A DNA stretch of 53,572 bases from Deltaproteobacteria bacterium. GTDB taxonomy: Bacteria; Desulfobacterota; Deferrisomatia; Deferrisomatales; BM512. Made by a program: the position numbers and the translations under genes. Under the pieces are notes generated by a model. That model was not told the origin of the DNA, ran no database searches, and saw only the letters and a program-made list of their open reading frames with translations. Position 1 is the stretch's first letter; every line of letters begins with the position of its first letter. Positions 2,329 to 53,572 of the stretch are shown here, piece after piece. The stretch spans positions 1-53,572 of the forward strand of contig PKTU01000002.1 of assembly GCA_002869005.1 (NCBI GenBank), read 5' to 3'.

Positions 2329-2377
2329 CTTCCAGTTGTGAGTTCTTTCTACTTGTTTTTATTTGGCGAGGGTGATG

Positions 2378-2902: not shown

Positions 2903-2949
2903 CTTTCTGGTTTTATTCTTTTTGAATAGGGGGTTTGGGGAGAGGTTAA

Positions 2950-3513: not shown

Positions 3514-3536
3514 TCTTCCGATTATCAATACACTAG

Positions 3537-3573
3537 CGGCCTGCCGGATGATACGGCGGGCCGTTTTCGTTTT
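3537..3573 (+). terminator. Intrinsic terminator after the TlpA-like pair
   Basis: A 10-bp stem (CGGCCTGCCG at 3537-3546 with CGGCGGGCCG at 3554-3563, one G-T wobble) with a 7-nt loop is followed by the T-rich run 3564-3573. It separates the TlpA pair from trmFO. Confidence 0.85.
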
Positions 3574-3586
3574 GGAGTAATTAAAA

Positions 3587-4912: not shown

Positions 4913-5529
4913 AGGTGTTTTTCAATGACCTCAAGTAGCTCTATTCGATCTACCAGGTTATGGAGAAAATCCATCCTCGATGCGTCCACCTCGACCACGG
5001 GTGAGATGCCGGCTTCGCGGTACTTTTTTATCCAGCTTTTATAGAGCGCGTTTAAACCTTTGAGGTACTCCGTGTCTATCGAGCTCTCATAATCACGGCC
5101 ACGCTTCGCTATCCTCTTTTTTACCGTGCGTAAGTTCGTCTTCATATAGATGAGGAGATCGGGTGGATTAATGGAGTTTAAAATCGTGGAGTAGAGTCTG
5201 CGGTACGCCTCGTAGTCTCGCCCGGTAAGGATGCCCTTTTTATGTAGGTGCATCGCGAAGACCTCGGCATCCTCATAAATTGTCCGGTCCTGAATAACCG
5301 TCTGTCCGCAAGCGTCGAGCTGTTGGTGTGTTCTGAATTTAAGGGCCAGAAAATAGATTTGCGAGTGAAATGCCCACCTTTTCATCTCCTCGTAAAAATC
5401 AGCAAGGTAGGGGTTTTCCTCATTCCGTTCATAAAAGGGGCGGATATCCTTATAGCGGTTGCACAAAAATTTCACGAGGCTTGATTTGCCGCTGCCCATC
5501 GTGCCCGCGACCGCAATGTATTTTATCAT
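4909..5529 (-). CDS. Deoxynucleoside kinase (dNK/dGK-dAK family)
   Basis: The 206-residue protein phosphorylates deoxynucleosides for nucleotide salvage. The P-loop GTMGSGKSS is at residues 9-17, the ENPYLADFYEE segment typical of the dGK/dCK family at about 38-48, and DRTIYEDAEVFA at 81-92. A lid region rich in Arg and Lys follows near residues 140-160. Which base it prefers cannot be told. I chose ATG at 5529 because an upstream in-frame TTG (5568) would place an intrinsic-terminator-like hairpin inside the coding region. The ribosome binding site is weak. It is probably last in a leftward unit rex / glycosyltransferase / response regulator / kinase, although a terminator-like hairpin lies just before it. 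Confidence 0.85.
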   Translation of the reverse strand: MIKYIAVAGTMGSGKSSLVKFLCNRYKDIRPFYERNEENPYLADFYEEMKRWAFHSQIYFLALKFRTHQQLDACGQTVIQDRTIYEDAEVFAMHLHKKGILTGRDYEAYRRLYSTILNSINPPDLLIYMKTNLRTVKKRIAKRGRDYESSIDTEYLKGLNALYKSWIKKYREAGISPVVEVDASRMDFLHNLVDRIELLEVIEKHL

Positions 5530-18028: not shown

Positions 18029-19168
18029 ATGTGTCGATTGAGTGCGCTGGTTTCGGCGGAGTACATCTCCCCAATGGAGCCGATCCTCGCCCTTGAGACG
18101 ATGAAGGAGGGGCACGACGGTTCCGGCCTCGGCCTCATCATGCGCGATCTCGGTGGCGAGTTTGAATCCCTGAAGGAGTACCCGGTACTCTCGGCCATTA
18201 CGACCCACGATGGCTATCATACACTTCAGGATTATATGGTCGATAAGGGGTTTCGCGTAAAACACCGCTGGGAGCCGCGCCTTAAGGTGACCCCCGGCAT
18301 GAAGATACAAAAGCGCGACAAATACCTCGTTAACCTCTACGAGTATCCGGAGAGCTATGAGGAGGCCACTAGTGAAGAAAAGGCGGCGCTGCTAACGCGT
18401 ACGCGCCTTGAGCTGCGCGCCCTTGGCGAGGCGGATAAGTCGATTACCGTCTTCTCCTTCTGGCCCGACGTCGTGACCCTTAAAGAGGTTGGGGACCCCT
18501 TGGAGGTCGGAGAGTTCTTCGGCTTGGATAAAAACCCCGTAACCGCGAAGACCGTCTTCGCGCAGGGCCGCCAGAACACAAACTACGCCATCAACCTCTA
18601 CGCATGTCACCCCTTCTTCATCCAGGGGTACTTCACCATGACCAACGGCGAGAACACGGCATTTATCCCGATACGCGAATATCTGGGGTCACGCGGCGTC
18701 GAGGGCTATGTGGGGTACAACTCCGACAGCGAGGTTTTCGCGCACATCCTCCACTATACACGGAAGAAGCTGGGCTACCCGCTCAGCTACTATAAGGATG
18801 TCATCACCCCCCTTAAGGGCGAGGAGATGCAGCGACGCCCCGATGCCGCCATCCTTGAGCTGATGAAACGCTCTTTGAGGATGCTGACTATTGACGGCCC
18901 CAACTGCGTCATCGGCTGTGATATCGACGGAACGGTCTTTATGACGCAGGACGCAAAGAAGCTTCGCCCCGGCGTCGTCGGCGGCGTAAATGGGCGCGTT
19001 GGCTTCATGAGCGAGGTTTGCGGCCTTAGCGAGGCTGTTCCCGGCCGCGACACGAGTAACGATGTTTTCCCGATGAAATATGACCTGGTGATGGTAAGGC
19101 CGGGCGCGAAGGAGATAGAGGTATGGAATCAGCTGAACGGCTCGATGTCAACCATCAGCTTGGGCTAA
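18029..19168 (+). CDS. Glutamate synthase amidotransferase subunit (GltB domain 1-like, class II GATase)
   Basis: The 379-residue protein begins MCR, so removal of Met exposes a Cys nucleophile as in N-terminal-nucleophile (class II) glutamine amidotransferases. GHDGSGLGL near residues 28-36 and the overall content match the stand-alone amidotransferase part of archaeal-type split glutamate synthases. It would hydrolyse glutamine and pass ammonia to the synthase subunit downstream. ATG at 18029 follows AAGGAG. The next gene starts 46 nt inside its 3' end in another frame. The operon is preceded by a consensus sigma-54 promoter. Confidence 0.85.
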   Translation: MCRLSALVSAEYISPMEPILALETMKEGHDGSGLGLIMRDLGGEFESLKEYPVLSAITTHDGYHTLQDYMVDKGFRVKHRWEPRLKVTPGMKIQKRDKYLVNLYEYPESYEEATSEEKAALLTRTRLELRALGEADKSITVFSFWPDVVTLKEVGDPLEVGEFFGLDKNPVTAKTVFAQGRQNTNYAINLYACHPFFIQGYFTMTNGENTAFIPIREYLGSRGVEGYVGYNSDSEVFAHILHYTRKKLGYPLSYYKDVITPLKGEEMQRRPDAAILELMKRSLRMLTIDGPNCVIGCDIDGTVFMTQDAKKLRPGVVGGVNGRVGFMSEVCGLSEAVPGRDTSNDVFPMKYDLVMVRPGAKEIEVWNQLNGSMSTISLG

Positions 19169-20778
19169 GCGACCTCCCCTACGTTATCCAGTGGAATGAC
19201 GCCGCCTGCACCCGCTGTGGCAGGTGTACGTCGGTCTGCCCGGTGCAGGCTATTGAGCCCGGAGTCTACGAGCGGCGCGTCGTTGAGTCGACCGGGGCCA
19301 CTCCGCTTCCGACCACTGTGAGGAGGGTTGGCTCCTGCATCAAACAGGTCGTGGACATCAACAGACGGTGTATAGGCTGCGCAACCTGCCGGCAGGTATG
19401 CCCAAACGATGCCATAGTGCCGGTGTTCAACCCGCGCAACAAGTTCGCATGGCACATGAATCAGGGCGGCGAGCCCTATAAGCGCGGCGGCAGGAGAAAC
19501 GATACCGACGCGTCGGTGCTTGACCAGCTTAAGTTTACGCGAATTTCCATGCTCACGGACCCGGCGCTTGACGCTGGCCGCCACGAATTCCGCGTAAGGA
19601 CCTACCTTGGCAGGAACCTACCTCCGGAGAAGTTGCCGATCAAGGTTGAAGACGGCCTGCTATTGCCCGACGGTATGCCCTTCATCCCGCCGGTGAGAGA
19701 GATATTCCCAATCCGCATCGGCGGCATGAGCGTTGGCGCCCTGTCTCCCCACATGTGGGAGGGGCTAGCGATGGGTATAGCCTACCTCAACGAGGTGGAG
19801 AACATACCCGTCATCATGTGTACCGGTGAGGGCGGTATGCCCCCAAGGCTTCTGAAGTCGCCATTCCTTAAGTATTTTATCCTCCAGATCGCCTCCGGCT
19901 ATTTTGGGTGGGATGAGATTGTGCATGCGATTCCGGAGATGCAGTGCGACCCGGCGGGCATAGAGATCAAGTACGGGCAGGGCGCGAAGCCCGGCGACGG
20001 CGGATTGCTTATGGCCTCAAAGGTTCTTAAGCACATTGCCAAGATTCGAGGTGTTCCGGAGTTCGTGGACCTCGCCTCTCCCCCGACGCACCAGACCAAA
20101 TACTCAATTGAGGAGGCCGTCGCCAAAATGGTCACCGCGATGAGCATGGCGTGGGACTTCCGCGTTCCCGTATATCCCAAAATTTCCGGCACGCGCACCG
20201 CCTTGGCGGTTCTCAATAACCTTGCCCGCAACCCCTTTGCGGCGGCCCTCGGTATCGACGGCGAGGATGGCGGTACAGGGGCTGCGTATAACGTCTCTCT
20301 CGATAAGATGGGGCACCCGATAGCCTCAAACCTTAGGGAATGTTATCTGAACCTTGTCAAGATCGGCGCGCAAAATGAGCTGCCGCTCTTCGCGGCGGGC
20401 GGTGTCGGCAAACACGGCAACCTCGCGGCCAACGCCGCGGCGCTCATAATGCTCGGCGCATCAGGCGTCGACTGCGGCAAATATATCATGCAAGCGGCCG
20501 CCGGCTGCCTCGGCGACGAGCACAACCGCTGCAATATATGCAATACGGGCAAGTGCCCCAAGGGAATCACGACGCAGGATCCGCGAATATTCCGCCGCCT
20601 CGACCCAGACAAGGTCGCGCAGCGAGTGGTTGACGTATTCGTCGCCGCGGACAAGGAGCTGAAGAAGATTTTCGCTCCGATGGGACGCTCAACCGAGCTG
20701 CCCATAGGTATGTCCGATGGCCTCTCCGTGAGCGACGCCGCCGTGGCGAAGCGCCTCGAAATAAACTACGCCTGCTAG
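19123..20778 (+). CDS. Glutamate synthase central/FMN subunit with N-terminal ferredoxin domain
   Basis: The 551-residue protein has an N-terminal double-cluster ferredoxin domain (CTRCGRCTSVCP near residues 26-37 and CIGCATCRQVCP near 82-93) followed by the FMN-binding glutamate synthase barrel (about 160-520). The Cys set CNICNTGKCPKGI near residues 470-482 is the iron-sulfur site of the family. It forms glutamate from 2-oxoglutarate and ammonia using electrons relayed through the clusters. ATG at 19123 overlaps the amidotransferase gene by 46 nt. This is the archaeal-type arrangement, in which the parts of GltB are separate polypeptides. Confidence 0.93.
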   Translation: MESAERLDVNHQLGLSDLPYVIQWNDAACTRCGRCTSVCPVQAIEPGVYERRVVESTGATPLPTTVRRVGSCIKQVVDINRRCIGCATCRQVCPNDAIVPVFNPRNKFAWHMNQGGEPYKRGGRRNDTDASVLDQLKFTRISMLTDPALDAGRHEFRVRTYLGRNLPPEKLPIKVEDGLLLPDGMPFIPPVREIFPIRIGGMSVGALSPHMWEGLAMGIAYLNEVENIPVIMCTGEGGMPPRLLKSPFLKYFILQIASGYFGWDEIVHAIPEMQCDPAGIEIKYGQGAKPGDGGLLMASKVLKHIAKIRGVPEFVDLASPPTHQTKYSIEEAVAKMVTAMSMAWDFRVPVYPKISGTRTALAVLNNLARNPFAAALGIDGEDGGTGAAYNVSLDKMGHPIASNLRECYLNLVKIGAQNELPLFAAGGVGKHGNLAANAAALIMLGASGVDCGKYIMQAAAGCLGDEHNRCNICNTGKCPKGITTQDPRIFRRLDPDKVAQRVVDVFVAADKELKKIFAPMGRSTELPIGMSDGLSVSDAAVAKRLEINYAC

Positions 20779-20788
20779 GAGAATCGTT

Positions 20789-23122
20789 ATGCGGTCGTTT
20801 GAAATAACAGGTAGAGATGACAAAGGTCGCGTTCCCTCCAAGGAGCTGGACGCGCGTATACAGGCGGCGGTTAAGGGCGGTGAAAAGCACCTGACCATCG
20901 ACGCCGACGGGCAGCACGGAATCGGCGGGCGCATCTGGCCCACGGAGGATGGAGTAACTCTTGAGGTCAACGGGTATCCCGGTCAGCGCCTCGGCGGCAT
21001 GGGTATGCTGGGGACGAAGATCCTTGTAAACACCTCCGCCTCCGATGACGTGGGTTGGGTAAACTGCGGCGCGGAAATTACCGTCCTGGGAGATGTATCC
21101 AATGGCGCCCATAACGCCGGCGCACAGGGGAAACTCTACGTGCAGGGCGGCGGCGGCGCGCGCTGCGATACGCTGACGAAGTTCAACCCCCGCTTTGCGC
21201 CGGTTGAATCATGGTACTTTCGAGATGTGGGTGACTCCTTCGCCGAGTTCAAGGCAGGTGGAATTGCCGTAGTCTGCGGTGTTGACCCCAGAAATCCCGA
21301 GAATATTCTCGGCTATCGCTCCTGCGTTGGGATGGTCGGAGGTACGATTTATTTCCGGGGGCCGGTAGAGGGCGTAAGCGAGAAGGACGCCAGGATTACA
21401 GAGCTTACGGATGCGGATTGGGAGTGGCTGACCTCAAACTTCCCCGCCTACCTTGAGGCAATTGACCGCGCCGGTTACCTGGAGGAGCTGACGAAATCTA
21501 AAGGCGATTGGAAGAAGATTGTTTCGCTTACTCCGCAGGAACGAGTTACAAAAGGCGCCAACCGTCTTTCAATGGAAGCCTTCCGCCGCGACAGCTGGGA
21601 GCCGGGAGTTGGCAGGGGCGGCATCTTTGCCGATTATCTGGACATTGACCACACCATAATCCCCTTCGTTGTTACAGGAGAGAATCGCCGCTTCGTTCCC
21701 TCTTGGGACAATGATCGCTACGCTCCGCCATGCGCCTACAACTGCCCCACCGGCATCCCCACCCATGAGCGCACCAAGCTAATAAGGGAGGGCAAGGAAG
21801 AGGCGGCGCTAGATATGGTCCTGCGCTACTCACCCTTCCCCGGCACGGTATGCGGTTATGTATGCCCCAACCTCTGCATGGAGTCATGTACCCGCTCAAT
21901 CTTTTTAAGCGATCCCGTTGACGTTACGCTCCTCGGAAGGTTGTCGATCGACCGCCCGGCGCCTGCTAAGGAGAAAGCCAGGAAGGAGAGGGTCTCCGTA
22001 ATCGGCGGCGGTCCCGCAGGTCTGTCGGCGGCCTACCAGCTGGTGCTCAAAGGCTATAACGTCTCCCTCTACGAGGGTGAGGATAATCTTGGCGGCAAGA
22101 TACATTATTGCATCCCCGAGGATAGGCTTCCCGGCGAGGTGCTTTCCAAAGAGCTTGAGCGCTTTAAGGGGCTGGGGGTAGACATTCACCTCTCCACAAA
22201 GGTCGACGCTGACCTCTACGGTAAAATACACGACGAGTCCGACGCGGTTGTGCTGGCCACGGGTAGCCACTCGCCCCGCACCATTCCCTTCCCCGGTTAT
22301 GAGCATGTGCTCCCCGGCATAGTCTTCTTGAAGGAGGTCACCGCCGGAATCGAGCGGGACCTGTCCGGCAAGAAGGTGGTTGTGATTGGCGCGGGTAACG
22401 TCGGCATGGATATATGTGTTGAAGCGTTCAACTGCGGCGCTGCTGAGGTGGTAGCGGTTGACATCCAAAAGCCCGCCTCCTTCGGCAAGGAGCAGAAGAT
22501 GGCGGCGGCCAGGGGCGCTACGATTCAGTACCCCAAATTCACCGACCATTACGACTTTGAAGGTAAGAAGATTCACTTTACAGATGGGACCTACTTAGAC
22601 GCGGACCTCGCAATCATCTCAATCGGCGAGACTCCGGAGCTTGAGTACCTGCCCAAGGAGATCGACCTTGACCGCGGACACATAAGAGTGGACGGGGTAG
22701 GTCAATCCAATGATCCCAAGGTCTTCGCCGTAGGCGACGTTACCAAGCCCGGTCTTATAACGAACGCCATCGGCGACGGCGTAAGGGTGGCTGAGTACGT
22801 GCACTCCCTAATCACCAAAACGGAGTACGAGGACGACAAACGCACTATAGTTCCCTACGAGAAACTCTCCTTTGAGTGGTTCGACCGTGAGCGGGAGGGT
22901 GGCGCGGTCAGCTGCTCCACCGAGGGCGGCAAGTGCATGAGCTGCGGCTCCTGCCGTGATTGCCACATCTGCGAGCATAGCTGCTACTGGAACGCCATTA
23001 GCCGCGTGGAGCATGAAAACGGCACCTATGAATATGTGGTGGACTCCGATAAGTGCATAGGATGTGGGTTCTGCGCGGGGGTCTGCCCTTGCGGTATCTG
23101 GGACTTAACCGCTGCGGGCTAG
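20789..23122 (+). CDS. GXGXG domain / GltD-type oxidoreductase / ferredoxin fusion of glutamate synthase
   Basis: The 777-residue protein joins three modules. Residues about 1-250 are the GltB C-terminal GXGXG beta-helix (GAHNAGAQGKLYVQGGGG near 108-125). Residues about 300-700 are a GltD-like NAD(P)H oxidoreductase with the Cys-rich entry domain (CAYNCPTGIPTHE, CGYVCPNLCMESC), FAD loop VIGGGPAG near 405 and NAD(P) loop VIGAGNVG near 530. The C-terminus adds two ferredoxin-type clusters (CMSCGSCRDC near 710 and CIGCGFCAGVCP near 756). It probably brings NAD(P)H or ferredoxin electrons to the FMN subunit. AGGAG precedes the ATG. The operon ends at a strong terminator 29 nt on. Confidence 0.93.
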   Translation: MRSFEITGRDDKGRVPSKELDARIQAAVKGGEKHLTIDADGQHGIGGRIWPTEDGVTLEVNGYPGQRLGGMGMLGTKILVNTSASDDVGWVNCGAEITVLGDVSNGAHNAGAQGKLYVQGGGGARCDTLTKFNPRFAPVESWYFRDVGDSFAEFKAGGIAVVCGVDPRNPENILGYRSCVGMVGGTIYFRGPVEGVSEKDARITELTDADWEWLTSNFPAYLEAIDRAGYLEELTKSKGDWKKIVSLTPQERVTKGANRLSMEAFRRDSWEPGVGRGGIFADYLDIDHTIIPFVVTGENRRFVPSWDNDRYAPPCAYNCPTGIPTHERTKLIREGKEEAALDMVLRYSPFPGTVCGYVCPNLCMESCTRSIFLSDPVDVTLLGRLSIDRPAPAKEKARKERVSVIGGGPAGLSAAYQLVLKGYNVSLYEGEDNLGGKIHYCIPEDRLPGEVLSKELERFKGLGVDIHLSTKVDADLYGKIHDESDAVVLATGSHSPRTIPFPGYEHVLPGIVFLKEVTAGIERDLSGKKVVVIGAGNVGMDICVEAFNCGAAEVVAVDIQKPASFGKEQKMAAARGATIQYPKFTDHYDFEGKKIHFTDGTYLDADLAIISIGETPELEYLPKEIDLDRGHIRVDGVGQSNDPKVFAVGDVTKPGLITNAIGDGVRVAEYVHSLITKTEYEDDKRTIVPYEKLSFEWFDREREGGAVSCSTEGGKCMSCGSCRDCHICEHSCYWNAISRVEHENGTYEYVVDSDKCIGCGFCAGVCPCGIWDLTAAG

Positions 23123-41757: not shown

Positions 41758-42009
41758 TTATTCCGCTCCAATTTCAATCCTGTAATGGGAGTTCTCCCTC
41801 TCTACATTTACCTTGTAGCCCATATTCTCAGCGGCATTGGGGATTGTCGAGGTCGCGTTGCGATTTGTTGTAAGGACTATTATTTTAACCTCGCCAGACC
41901 TGATATCGTCCCTGTGGTCATTTATCTCTTTTAACGCCGTCAACAAGGTTGAAGGGCAAATCTGCCCCCTTATATCAACGACGAACTCCTGAGGCTTTTC
42001 AGGCATCAT
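41758..42009 (-). CDS. TusA/SirA-family sulfur carrier
   Basis: The 83-residue protein has the TusA fold with its conserved Cys, C18 in RGQICPS, which can bind sulfane sulfur. The usual CPxP is CPST here. It overlaps the YeeE-type transporter gene by 4 nt (ATGA), a pairing known from thiosulfate/sulfur uptake systems (TsuA-TsuB) and selenium-related YedE loci. It would accept or pass on sulfur delivered by the transporter. ATG 42006 is a possible start one codon later. Confidence 0.85.
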   Translation of the reverse strand: MMPEKPQEFVVDIRGQICPSTLLTALKEINDHRDDIRSGEVKIIVLTTNRNATSTIPNAAENMGYKVNVERENSHYRIEIGAE

Positions 42010-43127
42010 TTTCCCCGTAATTCTTCGACGCCATGCGTCATTATGATTCTATTTTTCAAGATTAGGCCGCCCAAATAGCTACCCGGAAAAAGGCCCGCCA
42101 AAAATAGCAAGGATGATATCGAAAGGTAAGGCAGGCCGCCTAAAAGGTGCCAGACGTTGCACCCCTCCGCTATCCGGGCTGATATAGCCATTATCACCCC
42201 CCCCGCGAAGGCCGATAAGTATTGGCGCGGAGGAATGCGGAAATTAACTTCGTAATCACCCGCCATTTTAGCAGAAAACAGCGCTCCAAAAAATATCCCA
42301 ATAAATAAAGCGCCCTGGGCAATGAAGAGGGTATCCGTAACGGGGCCGTTATTTATGGTGATGGAGCCGCCCTGAAATTCAAGGGGAATGGCGACGCTTT
42401 TAGAAAAATATGAGGCTCTTGCAATATGACCGGGGAATATTGCTGCCTCAATTGTTGTGGCCACCTTAGCGTATAGCGTGGAGATGGAGATAGGGGTCCC
42501 GAAAAAGAAAATCGATAGCGCGCCCAAAAAGGATATCGCTACCGCAGCCTTCCAGGGTTGCAGGTAGGTGGGGATGAAGCTCTTCAATGTAAGCTTGCCC
42601 CCTCTTGCCCAAGAGATGATAAATAAGCTCCCTGCTAATGCCGAGGGCAGGACTACATAGAGCGGATCGGCACCTAACAACTCCGGTATGGTAGCAGCCT
42701 CAAATAAAGAGATCCGTTTGAAAAATCCGCTTATAGGAATTGCCAACTCAAAGAAGATCAAACTTCCGAATATTAGCCCTAAAATTGTTGCCGCGCCCGT
42801 CACCTCGCCTCCACCGAACCTGTAGACAGAGCCGACGACACAGCTTCCGGCGAGGGTCATCCCCACTCCGAAACCTATGCCTCCCAGAAGATGCGCCGCA
42901 CTCGGCGAACCGAAAACCTGAATAGAAACACCAAAACGGCGCAGAATCTCAAAGGTTAGGGTGGAGATAACTACTGAGAGGAGTAGCGCGCGGAGCAAAA
43001 GAAAGGATCTCGTTAAGAATACGTCCCTTACCATACCTGTAAGGCAGAAATCGGACCGGTGCATCACCCACCCCGCGAGGCTTCCTATAGCTAGCATGAC
43101 CAGGAATGTCTTAAGAGTGAAATCCAT
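42006..43127 (-). CDS. YeeE/YedE-family (TsuA-like) sulfur-compound transporter
   Basis: The 373-residue integral membrane protein has about 9-10 hydrophobic segments. The conserved Cys residues in HRSDFCLTG (near residue 27), TLAGSCVVG (near 94) and EGCNVWHLLGG (near 329) match the thiosulfate-conducting cysteines of TsuA/YeeE. With the overlapping TusA-like gene it probably imports thiosulfate or another sulfur species. ATG at 43127 follows AGGTGA; an upstream in-frame start adds 11 unconserved residues. Confidence 0.87.
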   Translation of the reverse strand: MDFTLKTFLVMLAIGSLAGWVMHRSDFCLTGMVRDVFLTRSFLLLRALLLSVVISTLTFEILRRFGVSIQVFGSPSAAHLLGGIGFGVGMTLAGSCVVGSVYRFGGGEVTGAATILGLIFGSLIFFELAIPISGFFKRISLFEAATIPELLGADPLYVVLPSALAGSLFIISWARGGKLTLKSFIPTYLQPWKAAVAISFLGALSIFFFGTPISISTLYAKVATTIEAAIFPGHIARASYFSKSVAIPLEFQGGSITINNGPVTDTLFIAQGALFIGIFFGALFSAKMAGDYEVNFRIPPRQYLSAFAGGVIMAISARIAEGCNVWHLLGGLPYLSISSLLFLAGLFPGSYLGGLILKNRIIMTHGVEELRGK

Positions 43128-43227
43128 ACTCTTCACCTGCCTGAAAGTGAGCCTTTGCACAAGATATTAACATGATTTTAGCTGCGGCTGGAAGTTGCGG
43201 GCAAATCTTTGAGGCGCCCGGAAAAGA

Positions 43228-43749: not shown

Positions 43750-44343
43750 ATGGAGCAATCTTATCTTGTCCAGTTGGCCCTGCTTTTTATAGGGTCGGTG
43801 CTGGTCAACAACTTCGTGCTGTCGCGCTTTCTCGGTATATGTCCCTTCCTGGGGGTATCGAGAAAGACGGAGACCGCGCTGGGCATGGGGATGGCGGTCA
43901 TTTTCGTCATGACCGTGGCCTCCGTTGTAACCTGGCTGATACAGCGCTATCTGCTGGAACCTTTTGGCCTCGAATACCTTCAAACCATCGCTTTCATCCT
44001 GGTAATCGCTTCTTTGGTGCAACTTGTGGAGATGGTGGTGCAGAAGGTCTCGCCCGCACTTTATCAGGCTCTGGGCATATTTCTGCCGCTCATTACTACC
44101 AACTGCGCGGTCCTTGGTGTAGCGGTTCTCAACATCCAGAAAGAGTTCTCCTTCGTTGAGACCATAGTCTTCTCCGCCGGCGCGGCGTTGGGCTTCACCC
44201 TCGCCATTGTGCTTTTTGCCGGCCTCAGGGAACGTCTGGAGCTCTCCGACGTGCCCCAGGCTTTTAGAGGCACCGCTGTAGCATTGGTGACCGCAGGACT
44301 TCTCTCATTGGCGTTTATGGGTTTTGCGGGGCTCGTCAAATGA
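43750..44343 (+). CDS. rnfA: Rnf electron transport complex subunit A
   Basis: The 197-residue protein has six membrane segments and the RnfA/RnfE-type signatures [18 protein letters not shown] (about 20-37) and [12 protein letters not shown] (about 115-126), whose Cys residues hold an intramembrane iron-sulfur cluster in studied complexes. Rnf couples ferredoxin:NAD+ electron transfer to ion pumping, or runs in reverse to reduce ferredoxin. It is first in the string rnfABCDGE, the order seen in gamma-proteobacterial rsx operons. The 3' end overlaps rnfB by 4 nt. Confidence 0.96.
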
Positions 44344-45332
44344 TTGAGGCGGCGATAATCCTTGTAGCTATAGGCGGCGCGGCGGCGCTGGGGCTGGGCA
44401 TTGCCTCGATAAAGTTCTCGGTTTACGTAGACCCGCGCGTTGAAAAAGTTGATGAGCTTCTGCCGGGAGCCAACTGCGGCGCGTGCGGCTACACAGGCTG
44501 CCACTCACTCGCGGAGGCTATAGTGGCCGGCGAGGCAATTCCCTCTGCCTGTATCCCCGGCGGGGAGACCGTTGCAAAGGCGGTTGGCGAAGTCGTCGGG
44601 GTATCCACAGAGATTGCCGAGCGAAATGTAGCTATCGTTCACTGTAAGGGAACCCGTGACAAGTCAACGGTGAAGGGCGTCTATCTCGGCGTTGAGGACT
44701 GCCGGGCGGCGAGGCTCGTCCTCGGTACGCCCAAGGGTTGTTTTTACGGGTGCATAGGGTTCGGCACCTGCGAACACTCCTGCCCCTTTGACGCGATCCA
44801 TGTGGGTGAGGGCGGCGTCGCGGTGGTTGATAATGATAAGTGCACAGGCTGCGGCAAGTGCGTCGCCTCCTGCCCGAAACAAATTATCTCCCTCGCCCCG
44901 ATCTCGCTTGAAGTCCACATAAAGTGCAAATCCCCCGAAAAGGGCAAGGCGGTAAAAAGCGTCTGCGAAGTGGGGTGCATAGGCTGCTCCAAATGCGCGA
45001 AGACATGCCCGGTCGAGGCCATCGAGATGAAAGACGGCCTTGCGGTAATCGATATAGCAAAGTGCATATCCTGCGGGCGCTGCGCCGAGGTTTGCCCCAC
45101 GTCAAATATCGACGATGCCGCAGCGCCAAGGCACTACCTTGAGGTGAAAGAGCAAGATTGTATCGGCTGCACGAAATGCAAAAAAGTCTGCCCCGTGGAC
45201 GCTGTAGCCGGCGAAAAGAAAAAGCCCCACGTAATCGACAAGGCAAAATGCGTGAGCTGCATGAAGTGTTACGAGGCCTGCCCCAAGGACGCCATCGTAA
45301 TGGTCGGCGAGAGGGGAGGCGACGATGGGTAG
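44340..45332 (+). CDS. rnfB: Rnf complex subunit B, extended multi-cluster form
   Basis: The 330-residue protein has an N-terminal membrane anchor, then the Fes domain ([16 protein letters not shown] near residues 45-60), then six ferredoxin-type Cys motifs: [13 protein letters not shown] (about 139-151), [48 protein letters not shown] and [12 protein letters not shown]. It takes electrons from soluble ferredoxin and passes them to RnfC. The canonical short RnfB has only two ferredoxin motifs, so this is a much extended electron wire of the kind seen in anaerobes. Confidence 0.96.
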
Positions 45333-46653
45333 ACACCTCTTCAGGGGTGGCATTCATCCCCCCGATGAGAAAAAACGTACAGCGCACCTGCCCACAGAGG
45401 TCGCGCCGTTGCCGGAGCTAATATTCCTCCCGGTCAGCCAGCACATCGGCGCTCCCGCGAAGCCTGCGGTGAAAAAGGGCGACAAGGTTCTCAAGGGGCA
45501 AGTTGTCGCGACGGCGTCAGGATTCGTCTCGGTGCCGATACACGCATCCACCTCCGGTGTGGTCAGAAGCGTTGGTCCCTACCATCACCCGATGGGCGCA
45601 AAACAGCTCGCCATTGAAATCGAGGTTGATGGCGAAGATCTTGCCGCCGAGCCGCTGGCGCCCATAGAAGACCCGCTTAATGCCGACCCCAACGTCATAA
45701 AGAGCCGCATACTGGAAGCGGGTATAGTCGGCATGGGAGGGGCTACCTTCCCCACACATGTGAAGCTCTCCCCGCCGCCTGAGTCGCCGATAGATTCAGT
45801 AATTTTAAATGGCGTCGAGTGCGAGCCCTTCCTCACCGCGGACCACAGGCTGATGCTTGAGCGCGGCGACGATATAATGTGCGGGCTAAAGCTCATATTG
45901 AATATCTTCGGCTTAGAGCGCGGCTACATCGGAATAGAGATGAACAAGCCCGACGCAATCGCCGAGATGGCGCGCTTCGCAACTGAGCGGGGCTGGTGCG
46001 ATATAAGGGGACTTGAGGTTCGTTACCCGCAGGGCGCGGAGAAGCAGTTGATCCACGCAATCCTCGGCCGCGACGTGCCCTCCGGGGCGTTGCCGATGGC
46101 CGTTGGCACTGTTGTCCAGAATGTCGCCACCGCTGTGGCGATTTGGGAGGCGGTAACTAAAGGGAAGCCGCTCATAGAGCGCGTCGCGACAGTTACCGGC
46201 GATGGTGTTAAAGAGCCCAAGAATATCCTCATTCGCACCGGGATGACTCTACAGCACCTCGTAGATCAGGCTGGCGGTCTCACCGACGATTGCCAGAAGG
46301 TCATTATGGGCGGCCCGATGATGGGTATGGCGCAGCACACCCTTGAGGTGCCCGCGACAAAGGGAACCTCCGGCGTTTTGTGTCTCCCGGCGGCTGAAGT
46401 ACGCGCAACGGGCCACCGCGACTGCATATCCTGCGGCCGCTGCGTTTCGGCATGCCCCATGGGACTCTCTCCGACGACGATATTCAACCTCATAGACAAG
46501 GACAAGGTCGCCGAGGCTGACGAATGGAGCGCGCTGGATTGCATCGAATGCGGCAGCTGCTCCTACGTATGCCCCGCATGGATACCCCTGGTCCAGTATA
46601 TACGCTATGCGAAGGGGCGCGTAATGGCGCGGAGGAGGGAGCTTAAAGGATGA
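45325..46653 (+). CDS. rnfC: Rnf complex subunit C (NADH/FMN module)
   Basis: The 442-residue peripheral subunit resembles NuoF: RnfC N-terminal domain (GGIHPPDEK near residues 8-16), FMN/NADH-binding core with MGGATFPTHVKL (about 137-148) and NGVECEPFLTADHRL (about 161-175), SLBB-like part, and two C-terminal clusters CISCGRCVSACP (about 371) and CIECGSCSYVCP (about 411). It exchanges electrons with NAD(H). It overlaps rnfB by 8 nt and rnfD by 4 nt. No long C-terminal Ala/Lys extension like that of the E. coli protein is present. Confidence 0.96.
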   Translation: MGRHLFRGGIHPPDEKKRTAHLPTEVAPLPELIFLPVSQHIGAPAKPAVKKGDKVLKGQVVATASGFVSVPIHASTSGVVRSVGPYHHPMGAKQLAIEIEVDGEDLAAEPLAPIEDPLNADPNVIKSRILEAGIVGMGGATFPTHVKLSPPPESPIDSVILNGVECEPFLTADHRLMLERGDDIMCGLKLILNIFGLERGYIGIEMNKPDAIAEMARFATERGWCDIRGLEVRYPQGAEKQLIHAILGRDVPSGALPMAVGTVVQNVATAVAIWEAVTKGKPLIERVATVTGDGVKEPKNILIRTGMTLQHLVDQAGGLTDDCQKVIMGGPMMGMAQHTLEVPATKGTSGVLCLPAAEVRATGHRDCISCGRCVSACPMGLSPTTIFNLIDKDKVAEADEWSALDCIECGSCSYVCPAWIPLVQYIRYAKGRVMARRRELKG

Positions 46654-47639
46654 GCCGCACCTTCTTCATAACCTCCTCGCCCCATGTAAACGACGGCGAC
46701 TCAATTTTCCGCATAATGTGGTCTGTTGTGGGTGCTTTGTTGCCTGCGACCCTCTGGGGCTTTTACCTCTTCGGTATGCCTGCGGTAAGGGTGACCCTCT
46801 TTACCGTCGCCGCTGCCGTCTTGGCAGAGGCCGCGGCGAACAAAATGAGGGGCCGCGCCGACACAACCCTGGATGGCTCCGCTGTCCTTACAGGGCTGCT
46901 CCTCGCGCTAAATCTGCCACCCTCCGCGCCCTGGTGGCTCTGCGTCTTCGGCGGCGCGGCGGCCATACTACTCGGCAAACAGGTTTTCGGCGGGCTTGGA
47001 CACAACCCCTTCAACCCCGCCCTTGTGGCGCGTGTGCTGCTCCTCGTATCGTTCCCCGCTTTCATGACTGATTGGGCGGTTGACGCCGGCTACCTTGCAG
47101 ATGCCGTCTCCTCCGCGACAGTGCTTGGGGAGGCTAAGACCTTCCTCATGACACCTGCGCTCGGCGCGCTCCCCGACGTTGACTACCTGGACCTCTTCAT
47201 CGGTTTTAGGGCGGGGTGTATCGGGGAGGTCTCTCCGCTTCTCCTGCTGGCTGGCGCGGCATACTTATACTGGCGCAGGATTATCACGATTGACATACCG
47301 CTCGCCTTCATCGCAACGGTTTTTGTTATAACCACGGCTGCGTGGGGCTTCGCTCCTGAAAAATATCTAAACCCGATGGCGCACCTCATGACGGGCGGCC
47401 TTATGATAGGCGCGCTCTTTATGGCGACCGACATGGTAACAAGCCCCTTGAATACAAAGGGGCGCTGGATATTCGGCTTAGGGTGCGGGCTTTTAACCGC
47501 AGTGATACGCCTCTGGGGCGGTTACCCGGAGGGCGTCTCCTTCTCCATCCTCCTCATGAATGCGTGCGTGCCTCTAATAGACAGGTACACAAAGCCCAGG
47601 AAATTCGGGCTTGCCGCGCCTGCGAAGGGGGGTGGTTGA
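46650..47639 (+). CDS. rnfD: Rnf complex subunit D
   Basis: The 329-residue integral membrane subunit has about nine helices and the family motifs DGSAVLTGLLLALNLPP (about 75-91) and GLGHNPFNPALVARV (about 115-129). The site expected to carry covalent FMN is the Thr in DAVSSATVLGE (about 151-161). RnfD is an ion-translocating part of the complex. The gene overlaps rnfC by 4 nt and rnfG by 1 nt. Confidence 0.95.
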   Translation: MSRTFFITSSPHVNDGDSIFRIMWSVVGALLPATLWGFYLFGMPAVRVTLFTVAAAVLAEAAANKMRGRADTTLDGSAVLTGLLLALNLPPSAPWWLCVFGGAAAILLGKQVFGGLGHNPFNPALVARVLLLVSFPAFMTDWAVDAGYLADAVSSATVLGEAKTFLMTPALGALPDVDYLDLFIGFRAGCIGEVSPLLLLAGAAYLYWRRIITIDIPLAFIATVFVITTAAWGFAPEKYLNPMAHLMTGGLMIGALFMATDMVTSPLNTKGRWIFGLGCGLLTAVIRLWGGYPEGVSFSILLMNACVPLIDRYTKPRKFGLAAPAKGGG

Positions 47640-48211
47640 TGAAGGATATATCGAGGATGGTGCTTGTCCTCGCCACCGTTTGTTTGGCGGCGGCGCTCGG
47701 CCTCTCAAAGATATACGATATGACCAAAGCCCCGATCGCGGAGGCGATGAGACAGGAAAAACTTTCGGCGATCAAGGCCGTTCTCCCGGCCTATGACAAC
47801 CAGCCCGACGTGGACGCGGTTGACTCCGGCGGGGCCACCTATTACATAGGCATGAATGAGGGCACGGTGAATGGAGTCGCCTTCGAGGTTTCCTCCATGC
47901 AAGGCTACGCCGGTCTTATTACGGCGATGGTAGGGGTGACACCGGCTGGAGATGTCACCGGGGTGCGGGTGCTTTCTCACGCCGAGACCCCCGGCCTCGG
48001 GGCCAAATTCACCGGTGAAGAGTACCTCTCCATGTTCAAGGGCAAAAACCTATCAGCCGCAAAGTGGGCGGTGAAGAAGGATGGCGGCGATTTCGACCAG
48101 ATAACCGGTGCGACGATCTCACCGCGCGCGCTGGTCGGCGCTGTGAAGGCCGGGCTGGAGGGTTTTTCCCGTGCGGCCTCATCCCTTGGCATCGTCAAAG
48201 GGGGTGAATGA
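47639..48211 (+). CDS. rnfG: Rnf complex subunit G (covalent FMN)
   Basis: The 190-residue protein has one N-terminal membrane helix (about residues 6-24) and a periplasmic FMN_bind domain with the flavin attachment motif ITGATIS near residues 158-164, and HAETPGLGAKF near 120-130. It passes electrons across the complex. The start ATG is fused to the rnfD stop as TGATG and follows GGGGGGTGG. It overlaps rnfE. Confidence 0.95.
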   Translation: MKDISRMVLVLATVCLAAALGLSKIYDMTKAPIAEAMRQEKLSAIKAVLPAYDNQPDVDAVDSGGATYYIGMNEGTVNGVAFEVSSMQGYAGLITAMVGVTPAGDVTGVRVLSHAETPGLGAKFTGEEYLSMFKGKNLSAAKWAVKKDGGDFDQITGATISPRALVGAVKAGLEGFSRAASSLGIVKGGE

Positions 48212-48810
48212 TGGGCGCCGTTGAAAATTTCACCCGCGGTCTATTCAAGGAAAACCCTGTCTTCCGACTGCTCCTCGGTATGTGCCCGACCCTCGCCGTA
48301 ACCACGGAGGCCGTCAATGGGCTTGGGATGGGCCTCGCGACGACCTTCGTCCTCATCTGCTCCAACGCTGTTGTAAGCCTCCTGAGGAATGTCATCCCCG
48401 CCAAGGTGCGCATCCCCTGCTTTATCGTCATAATCGCGACGTTCGTCACTATCGTCGATTTGGTTATGAATGCTTACCTCCACGACATGCACAAGACCCT
48501 CGGGGTATTTATCCCATTAATCGTCGTAAACTGCGTAATTCTGGGGCGCGCCGAGGCTTTCGCCTCCCGCAACAACCCCCTCGGATCGCTGCTTGACGGC
48601 CTAGGAATGGGTCTGGGCTTCACCGGGAGCCTTATGTTGCTCGGCTCCGTAAGGGAACTCTTCGGCAACGGCACCATCTTCGGGGCCTCGATATTCGGCG
48701 GCGGATACAACCCCGTAATAGTCATGATCCTCCCTCCGGGGGCGTTTATAACGCTTGGAATATTGCTTGCAATTATCAACCGTTTGGCGAGCGCGAAGAG
48801 GGCTTCGTGA
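48211..48810 (+). CDS. rnfE: Rnf complex subunit E
   Basis: The 199-residue integral membrane subunit is homologous to RnfA: LGMCPTLAVTTEAVNGLGMG (about 23-42) and IVVNCVILGRAEAFA (about 109-123) are family signatures with the cluster-binding Cys residues. Two adjacent ATG codons exist (48208, 48211); GGGGG at 48200-48204 suits the second. It is the last rnf gene, and 171 nt with a new promoter separate it from nuoA. Confidence 0.95.
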   Translation: MGAVENFTRGLFKENPVFRLLLGMCPTLAVTTEAVNGLGMGLATTFVLICSNAVVSLLRNVIPAKVRIPCFIVIIATFVTIVDLVMNAYLHDMHKTLGVFIPLIVVNCVILGRAEAFASRNNPLGSLLDGLGMGLGFTGSLMLLGSVRELFGNGTIFGASIFGGGYNPVIVMILPPGAFITLGILLAIINRLASAKRAS

Positions 48811-48981: not shown

Positions 48982-49338
48982 ATGGTTGAAAACTTTGTCC
49001 CCGTCTTGATTCTATTTTTACTCGCTGCGGCGTTCGGATTGGGAACCGTGGCGATATCCTCCCTCCTGGGCCCAAAGCGCCCAACCAAGGTTAAGCAGGA
49101 AACCTATGAGTGCGGTATGGTGGTCGACCCCCCGGCGTACCGTCCCTTTCACGTAAAGTATTACCTCATCGCGATGGCCTTCGTGGTCTTCGACGTCGAG
49201 GTTGTTTTCCTCTATCCGTGGGCTGTCAAGTTTAAACAACTTGGCCTCTTCGGGCTCGTTGAGATGCTTGTCTTCATCTTCATACTGCTCGTCGGATACG
49301 CCTACATCTGGAAGAAAGGAGTGCTGGAGTGGGAATAG
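48982..49338 (+). CDS. nuoA: NADH-quinone oxidoreductase subunit A
   Basis: The 118-residue membrane subunit of complex I has three helices and the conserved acidic segment [20 protein letters not shown] (about residues 58-77) plus [10 protein letters not shown] (about 42-51). NuoA lies at the junction of quinone site and membrane arm. ATG follows GAGGAA. It overlaps nuoB by 10 nt. Confidence 0.96.
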
Positions 49339-49829
49339 AACAGAAACTCCCCCCCGTACTTGCCACCAACCTTGAGAAGGTAGTCGGCCTCTGCCGCGCC
49401 AACTCCATCTGGCCCATGACCTTCGGCCTCGCGTGCTGCGCGCTGGAGATGATGGTTGCGTCCTCATCCGACTACGATATCGCCCGCTTCGGCGCCGAGG
49501 CGTTCAGGCCTTCCCCCCGTCAGGCGGATATGATGATCGTCGCGGGCACCGTCACCAAGAAGATGGCCCCGATGGTCGAGCGTATCTACAATCAGATATC
49601 AGACCCCAAGTGGGTCATCGCATACGGCTCCTGCGCCTGCTCCGGCGGCATCTTCAACACCTACGGCACAGTGCAGGGGGTGGATGAGATTATCCCGGTG
49701 GACGTCTATGTGCCGGGTTGTCCTCCCCGCCCGGAGGCGCTCCTTGCCGCAATCATGAAGCTACAAAAGAAGATCAAGAGCGAGAAGTTCTCCGACCGTC
49801 CCGACCTCCCCAAGGTGGCGGCGGGCTAA
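49329..49829 (+). CDS. nuoB: NADH-quinone oxidoreductase subunit B
   Basis: The 166-residue subunit carries cluster N2, the last in the complex I chain. The ligands are visible: tandem C36-C37 in [11 protein letters not shown]102 in GSCACSGG and C131 in GCPPRPEA. The start is GTG at 49329, overlapping nuoA by 10 nt, with AAGGAG about 11 nt upstream. The gene is intact and of normal length. Confidence 0.96.
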
Positions 49830-49850: not shown

Positions 49851-50324
49851 ATGGTCCAATTAAGCCAAATACTTGAAGGGCTAAAAGGTAGCGTGGAGGG
49901 CGCTGTCCTCTCCAGCGAGACCTTTCGCGGGCAGGATGTAATAAGGGTCGAGGCGTCGGCGATTGTAGACGTCATGACCTACCTGCGCGACAACTGCTCC
50001 TTCGACATGCTCACCGACCTCACCGCCGTGGACTATCTGGGGCGCGAGAAGCGCTTTGAGATGGTCTACATCCTCTACTCCTTTGAGCACAACAGGAGGC
50101 TCCACGTCAAAGCCACGCTGGCCGACGGAGAGAAGATCGCAACTATAGAGGGTGTCTGGAAAGCGGCCAACTGGCTTGAGCGTGAGGTCTACGACCTCCT
50201 CGGCATCCATTTCGAGGGGCACAGCGATCTGCGCCGCATCCTCCTCTGGGACGGTTACGAGGGGCACCCTCTACGCAAGGATTTCCCCTTGAAGGGAATC
50301 CCCCAGAAGACGACGTACCGTTAG
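49851..50324 (+). CDS. nuoC: NADH-quinone oxidoreductase subunit C
   Basis: The 157-residue 30-kDa-type subunit contains the signature ERFEMVYILYS-like region (about 63-73) and EREVYDLLGIHFEGHSDLRR (about 106-125), ending with GHPLRKDFP. It packs against NuoD in the hydrogenase-like core. It is a separate protein, not the NuoCD fusion of enterobacteria. nuoD starts 15 nt later. Confidence 0.95.
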   Translation: MVQLSQILEGLKGSVEGAVLSSETFRGQDVIRVEASAIVDVMTYLRDNCSFDMLTDLTAVDYLGREKRFEMVYILYSFEHNRRLHVKATLADGEKIATIEGVWKAANWLEREVYDLLGIHFEGHSDLRRILLWDGYEGHPLRKDFPLKGIPQKTTYR

Positions 50325-50339
50325 GGCAGGGAGAAGACG

Positions 50340-51110
50340 ATGAGTGAAAAACGTAATATGATCGTTAACTTCGGCCCCTCACATCCGGCGACGCATGGCG
50401 TCCTCAGGGTGATTCTGGAGCTTGACGGCGAGACCGTTGTTGACGCTATCCCTCACATGGGGCACCTGCACCGCGGGCTTGAAAAGCTTGCCGAGCACAA
50501 GACCTACCACCAGGCGCTGCCCCTGACCGACCGCATGGACTACACCGGGGCGCTCATAAACAACCTCGGCTACTCCCTCGCGGTGGAAAAGCTCCTCGAC
50601 ATAGAGGACGCCATACCTGAACGCGCAACGGTTTTGCGTGTGCTTCTGTGCGAACTTCAGCGCATCGCGGCGCACCTGCTATGGTTCTCGACCCACGCCC
50701 TCGATATTGGCGCGATGACAGTCTTCTTCTACGCTTTTCGCGACAGGGAGACGATCCACGATATCCTGGAGCAGGCAACGGGCGCGCGGCTAACGCCGAG
50801 CTTCATCCGCCCCGGCGGCGTCGCCGCCGACATCAACGACAAGTTCATTGAAAAGGCGAGGGCCTTCGTGAAGTCCTTCCCCGCGTTGATGGATGAGTAC
50901 GAGCTGCTGCTCAATAAGAACAAGATATGGCTGAAGCGTACGCAGAATATCGGCATGATGAGCGCCGAGGAGTGCAAGCAGTATGCGGTGACGGGCCCGG
51001 TGCTTCGCGCCGCGGGCATCAAATGGGATCTAAGAAAGGCCCAGCCCTACTGCGATTACGACAGCTACGATTTTGAGATCCCCACCGGCACCATCGGCGA
51101 CGTTTGGTAG
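50340..51110 (+). pseudogene. nuoD: nuoD, N-terminal two thirds, ending at an in-frame TAG
   Basis: Codons 1-256 of NuoD, the 49-kDa subunit that forms the quinone cavity with NuoB. The family start NFGPSHPATHGVLR (about residues 10-23) and HMGHLHRGLEKL (about 38-49) are present. The frame stops at TAG (51108-51110) after GTIGDVW, exactly where the conserved [12 protein letters not shown] block should follow, and that block continues in the same frame at 51111. A single change from GAG, CAG or AAG would restore a normal protein of about 392 residues. TAG is an ordinary stop here (RF1 present, other genes end in TAG), so this is either a real nonsense mutation or a sequence error. Confidence 0.88.
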
Positions 51111-51518
51111 CGATACCTCGTCCGCATGGAGGAGATGCGCCAGTCGCTAAGGATAGTGGAGCAGGCCCTTGACCGCTTGCCCCCCGGCCCGGTGATGCTC
51201 GACGATTTCCGCTACACCCCGCCGCCGAAGGAGCAGGTGTACAACTGCATAGAAGGGCTCATCCGCCACTTCAAGCTTATGAGCAGCGGCTATAAGGCCC
51301 CCGAGGGCGACGTATATATGTCGGTCGAGGCGACCAAGGGTGAGCTGGGTTATTACCTTGTTTCCGACGGCTCGGAGAAGCCCTACCGCTTCCGCGTACG
51401 TCCCCCAAGTCTCGTAAACCTTGCAGCTCTCAAGGATATGATCGTCGGTCGTATGGTCGCCGACGTCATCGCGGTTATCGGCTCAGTCGATGTCGTCCTT
51501 GGCGAGATTGACCGATAG
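51111..51518 (+). pseudogene. nuoD: nuoD, C-terminal third (same frame, after the TAG)
   Basis: This segment reads [20 protein letters not shown] and continues to [10 protein letters not shown], the standard C-terminus of NuoD, including the [17 protein letters not shown] block (about 61-77) near the quinone site. A start at ATG 51126 would give 130 residues, but no ribosome binding site precedes it. It is in frame with 50340-51110. Its conservation suggests that the interruption is recent or artefactual. Confidence 0.88.
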
Positions 51519-51535: not shown

Positions 51536-53485
51536 ATGAGCGAATTAGTCTTTTCAAGCTGGGCAAATGCCGACCTCGACAGCAGGAAGACAGTAGCTTC
51601 CGCCGATGAGGTCTCCATACCCAAGGAGATGCCGGACGGAACCGCCCTCGCCGGAATCATGGGGTGGGACGGAATAGCCATCTGGAGCGGGGCCGACCCC
51701 GTGGACATGGCACGTGCCTTCGCAAAGGGCCTTGCCGAGAACTCCTGCGGCCAATGTGTCCCCTGCCGCGTCGGCTCCTCCGTCATATTGCGCACCCTTA
51801 CCAGTATATGCGAAGGCAAGGGCGAGGCAGGTGACGTGGAGAACCTCTCCACCCTTGCAAACCGCCTCAGAAAGCAGGCGATGTGTGACCTGGGGCAGTC
51901 CTGCGGCAAGGCGTTTATCGACTTTGTCGAGAACTTCTCCGACGAACTGTCAAGCCGCATAGCGAACAAGAAGGTGACTCCGGCCGGCGAGTACATAACC
52001 ACGACTACCGCGCCCTGTAAATCAGCTTGCCCCGCCCATCTCGACATCCCCACCTACGTCGAGCGCATAAAGGAGGGCAAGTTTGAGGAGTCTCTGGCGA
52101 TAATCAGGCAGGATAACTGCTTGCCGGGCACAGTCGGCAGGATCTGCGTCAGACCCTGCGAGTTCAACTGCCGCCGGTCCAACGTAGATGGTCCAGTTCA
52201 GATCAAGTTCCTGAAACGTTTCGTTGCCGATTATGAAGTGGAGAGAAAGAGACCCACGAATCTCCCCGCGCCGCCCGCCCCCGGCGGCGGTAAGGTCGCG
52301 GTAGTGGGCGCTGGCCCCGCGGGGCTCTCCTGCTCCTACTTCCTCACCCAGCTTGGCTACGAGCCTGTTGTTTTCGAGGCGCTCGGCGAGCCCGGCGGCA
52401 TGGCCGCTGTCGGCATACCTGATTACCGCCTGCCCAGAAACGTTCTGCGCCACGAGGTAGACCTCATCGCCGCGATGGGCGCTGAGATTCGCTACAATAC
52501 CGACGTTGGCACCGACGTCCCCCTCTCGGAGCTCGCAGGCGGCGAGTACAAAGCTGTCTTTCTCGGCCACGGCGCGCGCCTAGGCACCTCAATGGGCGTC
52601 GAGGGCGAGGGCGATTTCAGGGGCTTTTACAAAGGCGCCGACTATTTGCGCGACGTCGCGCTTGGCCGCGAAGTATACACTGGCGACACGGCGATAATCG
52701 TAGGCGGCGGCAACGTCGCAATCGACTGCGCCCGCACCGCCCTTAGAATGGGCTTTAAAGACGTCAAGATTGTCTACCGCCGCTCCCTAAAAGAGATGCC
52801 TGCCGATGATGTCGAGGTCGCCGATGCGGTGGCTGAGAAGATCGAGATGATGGTGCTCCATAACCCGGTTCGCATCGTCTCCGAGGATGGCAAGGTTACA
52901 GGGGTAGAGGTTGTAAGGATGGAGCTTGGCGAGCCCGACGAGTCCGGCCGCCGTCGCCCTGTGGCTGTTGAAGGCAGCGAGACGGTGGTTCCCGCCGATG
53001 CCTGCATCATGGCAATCGGGCAGGGTATCGACACGGATTTCCTCAAAGGCTCCGACGACATCGATATAACGCGTTGGCAGACCGTCAAGGTCGAGGGGCT
53101 GAACAAGCTCGCGGCAGTGAGAGATGGAGTAGGCATCTTCGCTGGCGGCGACTGCGAAACGGGTCCGCTGACTCTAATCGCGGGGCTTGCGGCGGGTAAA
53201 GAGGCGGCCTTTCAAATTGACCGCTTCATACAGGAAGGCTCCTCCAAGGCGATGGACGAGTGGGTCTTAAACAAGTATGTAGAGGGCTTGAAGCCCTATG
53301 ATGGTAATGAGGACGTGGGCCAAAAAGCCGCCCTCGAACCCGCTAAGATACATCACCTGCCGGTGGAGTCGCGGGTCAAGACAATGGATGAGGTCGAAAT
53401 CGGTTTTACCCATGAGGAAGCCATTCGCGAGGCCTCCCGCTGCCTGCGCTGCTACCGCCTTCTGGTGGCCGCGAAGGCCGGTTAA
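51536..53485 (+). CDS. NuoF iron-sulfur domain fused to a GltD-type NAD(P)H oxidoreductase (SfrB-like)
   Basis: The 649-residue protein starts with the C-terminal iron-sulfur domain of NuoF: C71, C74 and C77 in SCGQCVPCRVG plus C117, the ligands of cluster N3. The FMN/NADH-binding part of NuoF is missing. Residues about 155-240 form the Cys-rich entry domain of GltD (CKSACPAHLDIPTY, CLPGTVGRICVRPCEFNC), followed by the FAD loop VGAGPAG (257-263) and an NAD(P) loop VGGGNVAID near 396-404. This layout matches the beta subunit of Geobacter SfrAB. It sits where nuoE/nuoF are expected and may feed NAD(P)H electrons to complex I. Confidence 0.9.
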   Translation: MSELVFSSWANADLDSRKTVASADEVSIPKEMPDGTALAGIMGWDGIAIWSGADPVDMARAFAKGLAENSCGQCVPCRVGSSVILRTLTSICEGKGEAGDVENLSTLANRLRKQAMCDLGQSCGKAFIDFVENFSDELSSRIANKKVTPAGEYITTTTAPCKSACPAHLDIPTYVERIKEGKFEESLAIIRQDNCLPGTVGRICVRPCEFNCRRSNVDGPVQIKFLKRFVADYEVERKRPTNLPAPPAPGGGKVAVVGAGPAGLSCSYFLTQLGYEPVVFEALGEPGGMAAVGIPDYRLPRNVLRHEVDLIAAMGAEIRYNTDVGTDVPLSELAGGEYKAVFLGHGARLGTSMGVEGEGDFRGFYKGADYLRDVALGREVYTGDTAIIVGGGNVAIDCARTALRMGFKDVKIVYRRSLKEMPADDVEVADAVAEKIEMMVLHNPVRIVSEDGKVTGVEVVRMELGEPDESGRRRPVAVEGSETVVPADACIMAIGQGIDTDFLKGSDDIDITRWQTVKVEGLNKLAAVRDGVGIFAGGDCETGPLTLIAGLAAGKEAAFQIDRFIQEGSSKAMDEWVLNKYVEGLKPYDGNEDVGQKAALEPAKIHHLPVESRVKTMDEVEIGFTHEEAIREASRCLRCYRLLVAAKAG

Positions 53486-53511
53486 CTTCGCCGGATAATG
53501 GGGAATCAACG

Positions 53512-53572
53512 ATGATAAAACTGACTGTCAACGGGATTGAGATCGAGGCCGAAGTAGGCGCGACGATCCTTG
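53512..53572 (+). CDS. nuoG: NuoG-like / 2Fe-2S ferredoxin-domain protein, 5' end only
   Basis: Only 20 codons lie in the window: MIKLTVNGIEIEAEVGATIL, the beta-grasp start of the 2Fe-2S domain found at the N-terminus of NuoG, HoxU and SfrA-type subunits. It starts 26 nt after the fusion gene, behind GGGGAATC. The NuoG identity is inferred from position and fold. Confidence 0.7.
   Translation, partial: MIKLTVNGIEIEAEVGATIL

Follow-up and report, generated by a model that had tools for sequence, protein, structure and literature searches.

Proteins in which the N3 iron-sulfur domain of NuoF is joined to a GltD-type flavoprotein are known from the NADPH-linked SfrAB of Geobacter, where SfrB of this build is paired with a NuoG/formate dehydrogenase-like partner. 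To our knowledge, SfrAB has not been reported as part of complex I. The NADP-dependent formate dehydrogenase (FDH) of Moorella thermoacetica, a tetramer of the two subunits SfrB2 and SfrA2/FdhF3, likewise combines an SfrB-type beta subunit with an FDH alpha subunit, the latter annotated as two genes (PMC13040438). Replacement of NuoEFG in complex I by another input module has been described for Nuo-Bfu of Geobacter and other bacteria, in which the module is BfuABC; BfuB retains an FMN/NADH domain, and confurcation of NADH and ferredoxin has been proposed (PMC9304861). Formate dehydrogenases are attached to complex I-like membrane machines in formate hydrogenlyase and Fdh-Ech complexes, which end in a NiFe hydrogenase and H2. 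Finally, the CISM-linked nuo cluster of Thermodesulfovibrio has no nuoEFG and has an adjacent molybdopterin subunit, which is classed as a thiosulfate/polysulfide reductase, and the passage describing it mentions no SfrB-type partner (PMC5165239).

The window analysed here, a stretch of 53,572 nucleotides from a deltaproteobacterial genome (contig C110), resembles the Moorella system in pairing an SfrB-type beta subunit with an FDH alpha subunit, whose reading frame is split here by an in-frame TGA, but the pair stands where nuoEFG would be in an otherwise complete complex I operon. Unlike the partner in Geobacter SfrAB, the partner in this pair has an intact selenocysteine (Sec) FDH site; unlike BfuB, the SfrB-type protein has no FMN domain; and unlike formate hydrogenlyase and Fdh-Ech, the operon encodes a true NuoD of the quinone type. 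We consider it probable that the operon specifies a complex I of 13 subunits in which an NADP-formate dehydrogenase module (SfrB and FdhA) replaces NuoE, NuoF and NuoG. An FDH-SfrB module in complex I was not described in the open-access literature searched, and novelty is claimed solely against that searchable literature.

The window contig stops 62 bp inside the gene that follows the sfrB-type gene. Contig C10 overlaps the last 92 bp of the window exactly and carries the rest of fdhA, then nuoH, nuoI, nuoJ and nuoK, and contig C23, which overlaps C10 by an exact 83 bp, carries nuoL, nuoM and nuoN. The full operon, rnfABCDGE-nuoABCD-sfrB-fdhA-nuoHIJKLMN, is therefore distributed across three contigs of the same genome. 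Both joins are supported by the sister MAG of an uncultured deltaproteobacterium (L017/L048), in which the identical gene order is uncut, and the relatives from the same order show this gene order wherever their contigs extend far enough. Rnf genes lie beside nuoA in several of these relatives and are absent from that position in others. Upstream of rnfA, the window encodes a YeeE/YedE-family membrane protein (42009-43160, minus strand) that matches the models for thiosulfate TsuA and selenium YedE weakly, in each case below cut-off.

Table 1. Features of the operon in the window and of the fdhA body on contig C10.
Feature	Position	Strand	Remarks
rnfA-rnfB-rnfC-rnfD-rnfG-rnfE (Rnf complex)	43750..48810	+	ends 171 bp upstream of nuoA
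nuoA	48982..49338	+	Pfam PF00507, E 2.5e-38
nuoB	49329..49829	+	Pfam PF01058
nuoC	49851..50324	+	Pfam PF00329
nuoD	50340..51518	+	two ORFs, Pfam PF00346 on each half
In-frame TAG in nuoD	51108..51110	+	context GDVW*RYLVRM
sfrB-type gene	51536..53485	+	ORF, 649 aa
N3 [4Fe-4S] domain of sfrB-type gene	51704..51952	+	PF10589, E 1e-20; residues 57-139
GltD-like module of sfrB-type gene	51995..53233	+	PF14691, Pyr_redox_2
FAD loop GAGPAG, SfrB residues 258-263	52307..52324	+	
NAD(P) loop GGGNVA and VYRRS...EMPA arginines, SfrB residues 390-416	52703..52783	+	
fdhA 5' end, first ~20 codons	53511..53572	+	remainder on contig C10
fdhA body	C10 (L111) 2312-4987	minus	891 aa; Sec349, His350, Arg544

A sequence-only reading of the window had described the 649-residue protein as a fusion of the NuoF N3 domain (with C71, C74, C77 and C117) and a GltD-type flavoprotein, devoid of the FMN site and embedded in a nuo operon with neither nuoE nor a full nuoF between nuoD and the next gene. 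All of this held up. Pfam places NADH_4Fe-4S (the N3 domain of NuoF) at residues 57-139, Fer4_20 at 154-237 and Pyr_redox_2 at 253-545, and there is no Pfam match in the protein to the FMN domain Complex1_51K (PF01512). C71, C74 and C117 are identical in all 25 homologues, as are the cysteine motifs C161/C165 and C204/C208/C212 of the GltD module, and C77 is kept in 24 of the 25. The gene begins 17 bp after the end of nuoD and is followed after 25 bp by the next start codon, with nuoABCD upstream and nuoHIJKLMN after fdhA. Judging by its domains the protein is of the SfrB type, an N3 domain fused to a complete GltD FAD/NAD(P) module, and its closest solved relatives are NfnL and the GltD-like halves of Stn/Nfn enzymes (1e-77 to 1e-106 for NfnL-type PDB matches). 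The RR pair associated with the NAD(P) loop is present in every one of the 25 aligned homologues, and this arginine motif suggests an NADPH-type site. An AlphaFold model built from a 3-row alignment had a mean pLDDT of 39 and was left out of the reasoning. Elsewhere in the window (18029-23122) there is a split glutamate synthase: GltB-like parts are encoded separately, and a 777-aa protein fuses a region resembling the GltB C-terminus to a GltD-like module and ferredoxin motifs.

The gene downstream of sfrB had been taken for a NuoG-like gene from the part visible in the window; its continuation on C10 overturns this. FdhA scores 826 bits against TIGR01591 (Fdh-alpha; cut-off 666) and fails the NuoG equivalog TIGR01973 (416 bits; cut-off 470). 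For the sister-genome protein, the best PDB match is the FDH alpha subunit of R. capsulatus at 780 bits, compared with 263 for the best NuoG. In the window genome's FdhA, U349, H350 and R544 align with C386, H387 and R587 of the R. capsulatus enzyme, and the N-terminus keeps the N1b cysteines (C34, C45, C48, C62), the N5 His/Cys set (H94, C98, C101, C107) and further cysteine motifs. We predict that the gene encodes the alpha subunit of a Sec-containing formate dehydrogenase and not a true NuoG. Because the contig end had hidden this partner, the earlier account stood in part only: an input other than NADH and the lack of a matching nuoEF are both supported, and the module may, as that account allowed, be shared with a soluble enzyme, but formate, which is likely to be a donor as well as NADP(H), was missed, and, while the likeness to SfrB is real, the Moorella NADP-FDH is a closer precedent than the Geobacter SfrAB it had named.

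fdhA has a single in-frame stop, TGA as codon 349, which falls within DHCARL(U)HSATVAGL and occupies the same position in all order relatives in which fdhA can be read through. Among the nuo-linked Sec-FDH genes directly after sfrB, 19 of 19 have TGA at the Sec position. The alternatives of a pseudogene or of two genes were rejected, as the TGA and the frame are constant across families; the frameshifted fdhA of one genome (G010) was excluded from active-site counts. The Rfam model SECIS_3 matches at the Sec codon in all seven loci scanned (32-62 bits, E 0.004 to 5e-12), each match lying below the gathering score of 63, and a hairpin GTGGCC-GGTCT-GGCCAC is visible at the Sec codon of fdhA. The folding energy of the SECIS region does not differ significantly from that of shuffled sequences (z -1.4 to 0.2), so the SECIS assignment is drawn solely from the position of the Rfam match and the apical hairpin. 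The genome encodes tRNA-Sec (75 bits), SelB (373), SelA (575) and SelD (359), all over cut-off, and fdhD adjoins selB. The selD gene (L204, C1:18486-19412) has an in-frame TGA of its own, which makes SelD a probable selenoprotein as well.

The Q and P modules of the complex I core, NuoA-D and NuoH-N, are all encoded, and NuoI, NuoL, NuoM and NuoN exceed their subfamily cut-offs. nuoD is split into two ORFs because of the in-frame TAG; in a profile search it gives 394 bits with this one stop and is otherwise complete. A genome of the same genus has GAA at this codon, and TAG is one base change away from GAG; the stop may be an assembly error, a polymorphism or a real lesion. The C-terminus of NuoD ends in GEIDR and lacks the NiFe motif (DPCxxC), and the sister-genome NuoD has Nqo4 of T. 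thermophilus as its best match, with the quinone-site His and Tyr kept in the alignment. These features mark the window protein as a true quinone-type NuoD of complex I, unlike the large subunit of NiFe hydrogenases.

Neither NuoE nor an FMN-domain NuoF is encoded in the operon. A canonical nuoEFG serving it from elsewhere was rejected, since a search beyond the operon found no NuoF above the curated cut-off in nine genomes, that of the window and eight order relatives. In one relative (G008), a separate nuo cluster includes a NuoF-like gene of its own. In the window genome, three sets of NuoE, NuoF and the NuoG N-terminal region occur (L014, L015 and L016, on contigs C149, C18 and C20), the NuoE/NuoF-like genes on C149 and C18 adjoining HdrA-type genes and the NuoF-like gene on C18 being broken by TAA; these sets are possibly bifurcating (Bfu-like) modules. 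There is also a second, divergent complex I-like cluster (L186, contig C121, 84-8000) with NuoD, H, I, J and K, two NuoL-like proteins and a NuoM-like protein, for which no NuoEFG or other partner module was found on the part read, and a NuoD-like match of this kind is present in all order relatives checked.

A strong SfrB match was found in 71 of 345 genomes of the phylum. We read the genomic contexts by script, in these genomes and in separately sampled relatives, and obtained 53 nuo-linked SfrB loci (52 and that of the window). An intact FDH is present in about half of these clusters, and the usual place of the FDH or NuoG-like gene is between sfrB and nuoH. A Sec-FDH occupies that position, or lies between sfrB and the contig end, in 19 loci; it lies just upstream of nuoA instead in 6, and upstream together with a downstream NuoG-like protein without the site in 3. 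The site-less NuoG-like protein, which has neither Sec/Cys-His nor the Arg, occurs by itself in 16 loci, Cys variants occur in 2 (one of them without the His), and the remaining 7 are cut, partial or gene-less. In two genomes (G034 and G343) there is no FDH or NuoG gene between sfrB and nuoH; both have a Sec-FDH beside etfBA elsewhere (L198 8580-11249 and L199 8325-10994). FDH-like subunits in which Cys replaces Sec and the His is lost (L136 in G080, L068 in G026) possibly have decaying active sites.

In the SfrB phylogeny the order of the window forms one clade (support 1.00), and all its readable members have a nuo-linked Sec-FDH. A tree of the FDH and NuoG-like N-terminal region (about 216 residues) places most nuo-linked FDHs with nuo-linked NuoG-like proteins (support 0.91) and several soluble FDHs apart from them, four soluble FDHs (L158, L167, L198 and L199) falling inside the nuo group; in the C-terminal tree the FDHs cluster together. 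This suggests that docking to complex I may have shaped the N-terminal half.

The proposed complex would comprise NuoA-D, NuoH-N, the SfrB-type protein and FdhA, the last in the position of NuoG. Formate would be oxidised at the Sec-coordinated Mo/W site of FdhA, for which the motifs and the Sec decoding were observed, and, going by the structure of complex I, its electrons would pass from the Mo-proximal [4Fe-4S] cluster through the N4/N5 chain to NuoI, N2 and menaquinone. Quinone reduction would drive the antiporter-like NuoL, NuoM and NuoN and so pump protons. NADP(H) would bind at the FAD of SfrB, whose clusters, together with the N3 domain, would relay electrons to and from N1b of FdhA, an arrangement that would put formate, NADP(H) and quinone on one shared wire; run in reverse, the complex could use quinol to produce formate or NADPH, paying with the proton gradient.

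The most serious competing explanation is that SfrB and FdhA form a soluble NADP-FDH of the Moorella type that is merely co-transcribed with an 11-subunit complex I, itself fed by ferredoxin or another carrier, for example from the Rnf pool. The Moorella enzyme is built from the same pair of subunits and is soluble (PMC13040438), and SfrB-FDH pairs without nuo genes are also present in the phylum, so the module can work alone, which counts against integration. Complexes of 11 subunits that lack NuoEFG are common (PMC11238625), and the location of the FDH upstream of nuoA or elsewhere in some genomes is in line with a free enzyme; the nonsense codon in the window nuoD and the gene-less slot of G034 and G343 also count against an integrated complex. 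Set against this are the fact that, across many families, the genes sit exactly where nuoEFG would, the complex I-type N-terminal half of the nuo-linked FDHs, and the site-less NuoG-like proteins, which could have no FDH function and whose presence in the same slot argues for a role of this slot in passing electrons into complex I. We regard a merely co-transcribed soluble enzyme as fairly unlikely.

It is less likely still that the complex works mainly as an NADPH:menaquinone complex I, with the FDH site a side or ancestral activity. SfrB occurs with the site-less NuoG-like protein in 19 nuo-linked clusters (3 of them with an upstream Sec-FDH too), so complexes linked to SfrB can do without an FDH site in that subunit, and the arginine motif of SfrB is invariant; the order of the window, however, keeps all FDH active-site residues and the Sec codon, and the window genome keeps the Sec and FdhD machinery. 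That the physiological direction is the reverse one, with quinol and proton motive force driving the reduction of CO2 to formate, or of NADP+, to meet the needs of a syntroph or autotroph, seems least probable of all: FDHs of this type are reversible and the lineage is anaerobic, with Rnf and HdrA-linked NuoEF-like modules, but direction is not something that sequence can tell.

The integrated SfrB-FdhA complex I that we favour can also be considered in terms of energy. Published potentials are -432 mV for formate, about -370 mV for NADPH and near -280 mV for NADH (PMC13040438, PMC9304861), and -74 mV for menaquinone (PMC9304861). From these values, two electrons passed to menaquinone would yield ~69 kJ/mol from formate, ~57 from NADPH and ~40 from NADH, so that formate or NADPH would suffice for roughly the number of protons that complex I moves and NADH would not. 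A parallel argument has been made for Nuo-Bfu (PMC9304861), and the SfrB-FdhA input would be another way around the energy deficit with menaquinone for which Nuo-Bfu has been put forward as a solution. Only tentatively do we go further and propose that this complex I pumps protons while linking formate and NADP(H) to menaquinone, with a single input module that reversibly joins the three redox pools.

If this three-pool proposal is true, the cell would be able to respire formate, or to draw on the proton gradient and produce formate and NADPH from quinol, and syntrophic degraders of fatty acids and aromatic compounds would have a direct machine for reverse electron transport. The donors of complex I would extend beyond NADH, ferredoxin, flavodoxin and F420H2. 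NuoG has long been regarded as a dead relative of formate dehydrogenase, and its counterpart here would be a live one, so that the clusters with and without the FDH site would provide natural pairs for testing the loss or gain of catalysis in NuoG. As a candidate for the proton-coupled oxidation or production of formate in menaquinone-using anaerobes, the locus would also be well defined.
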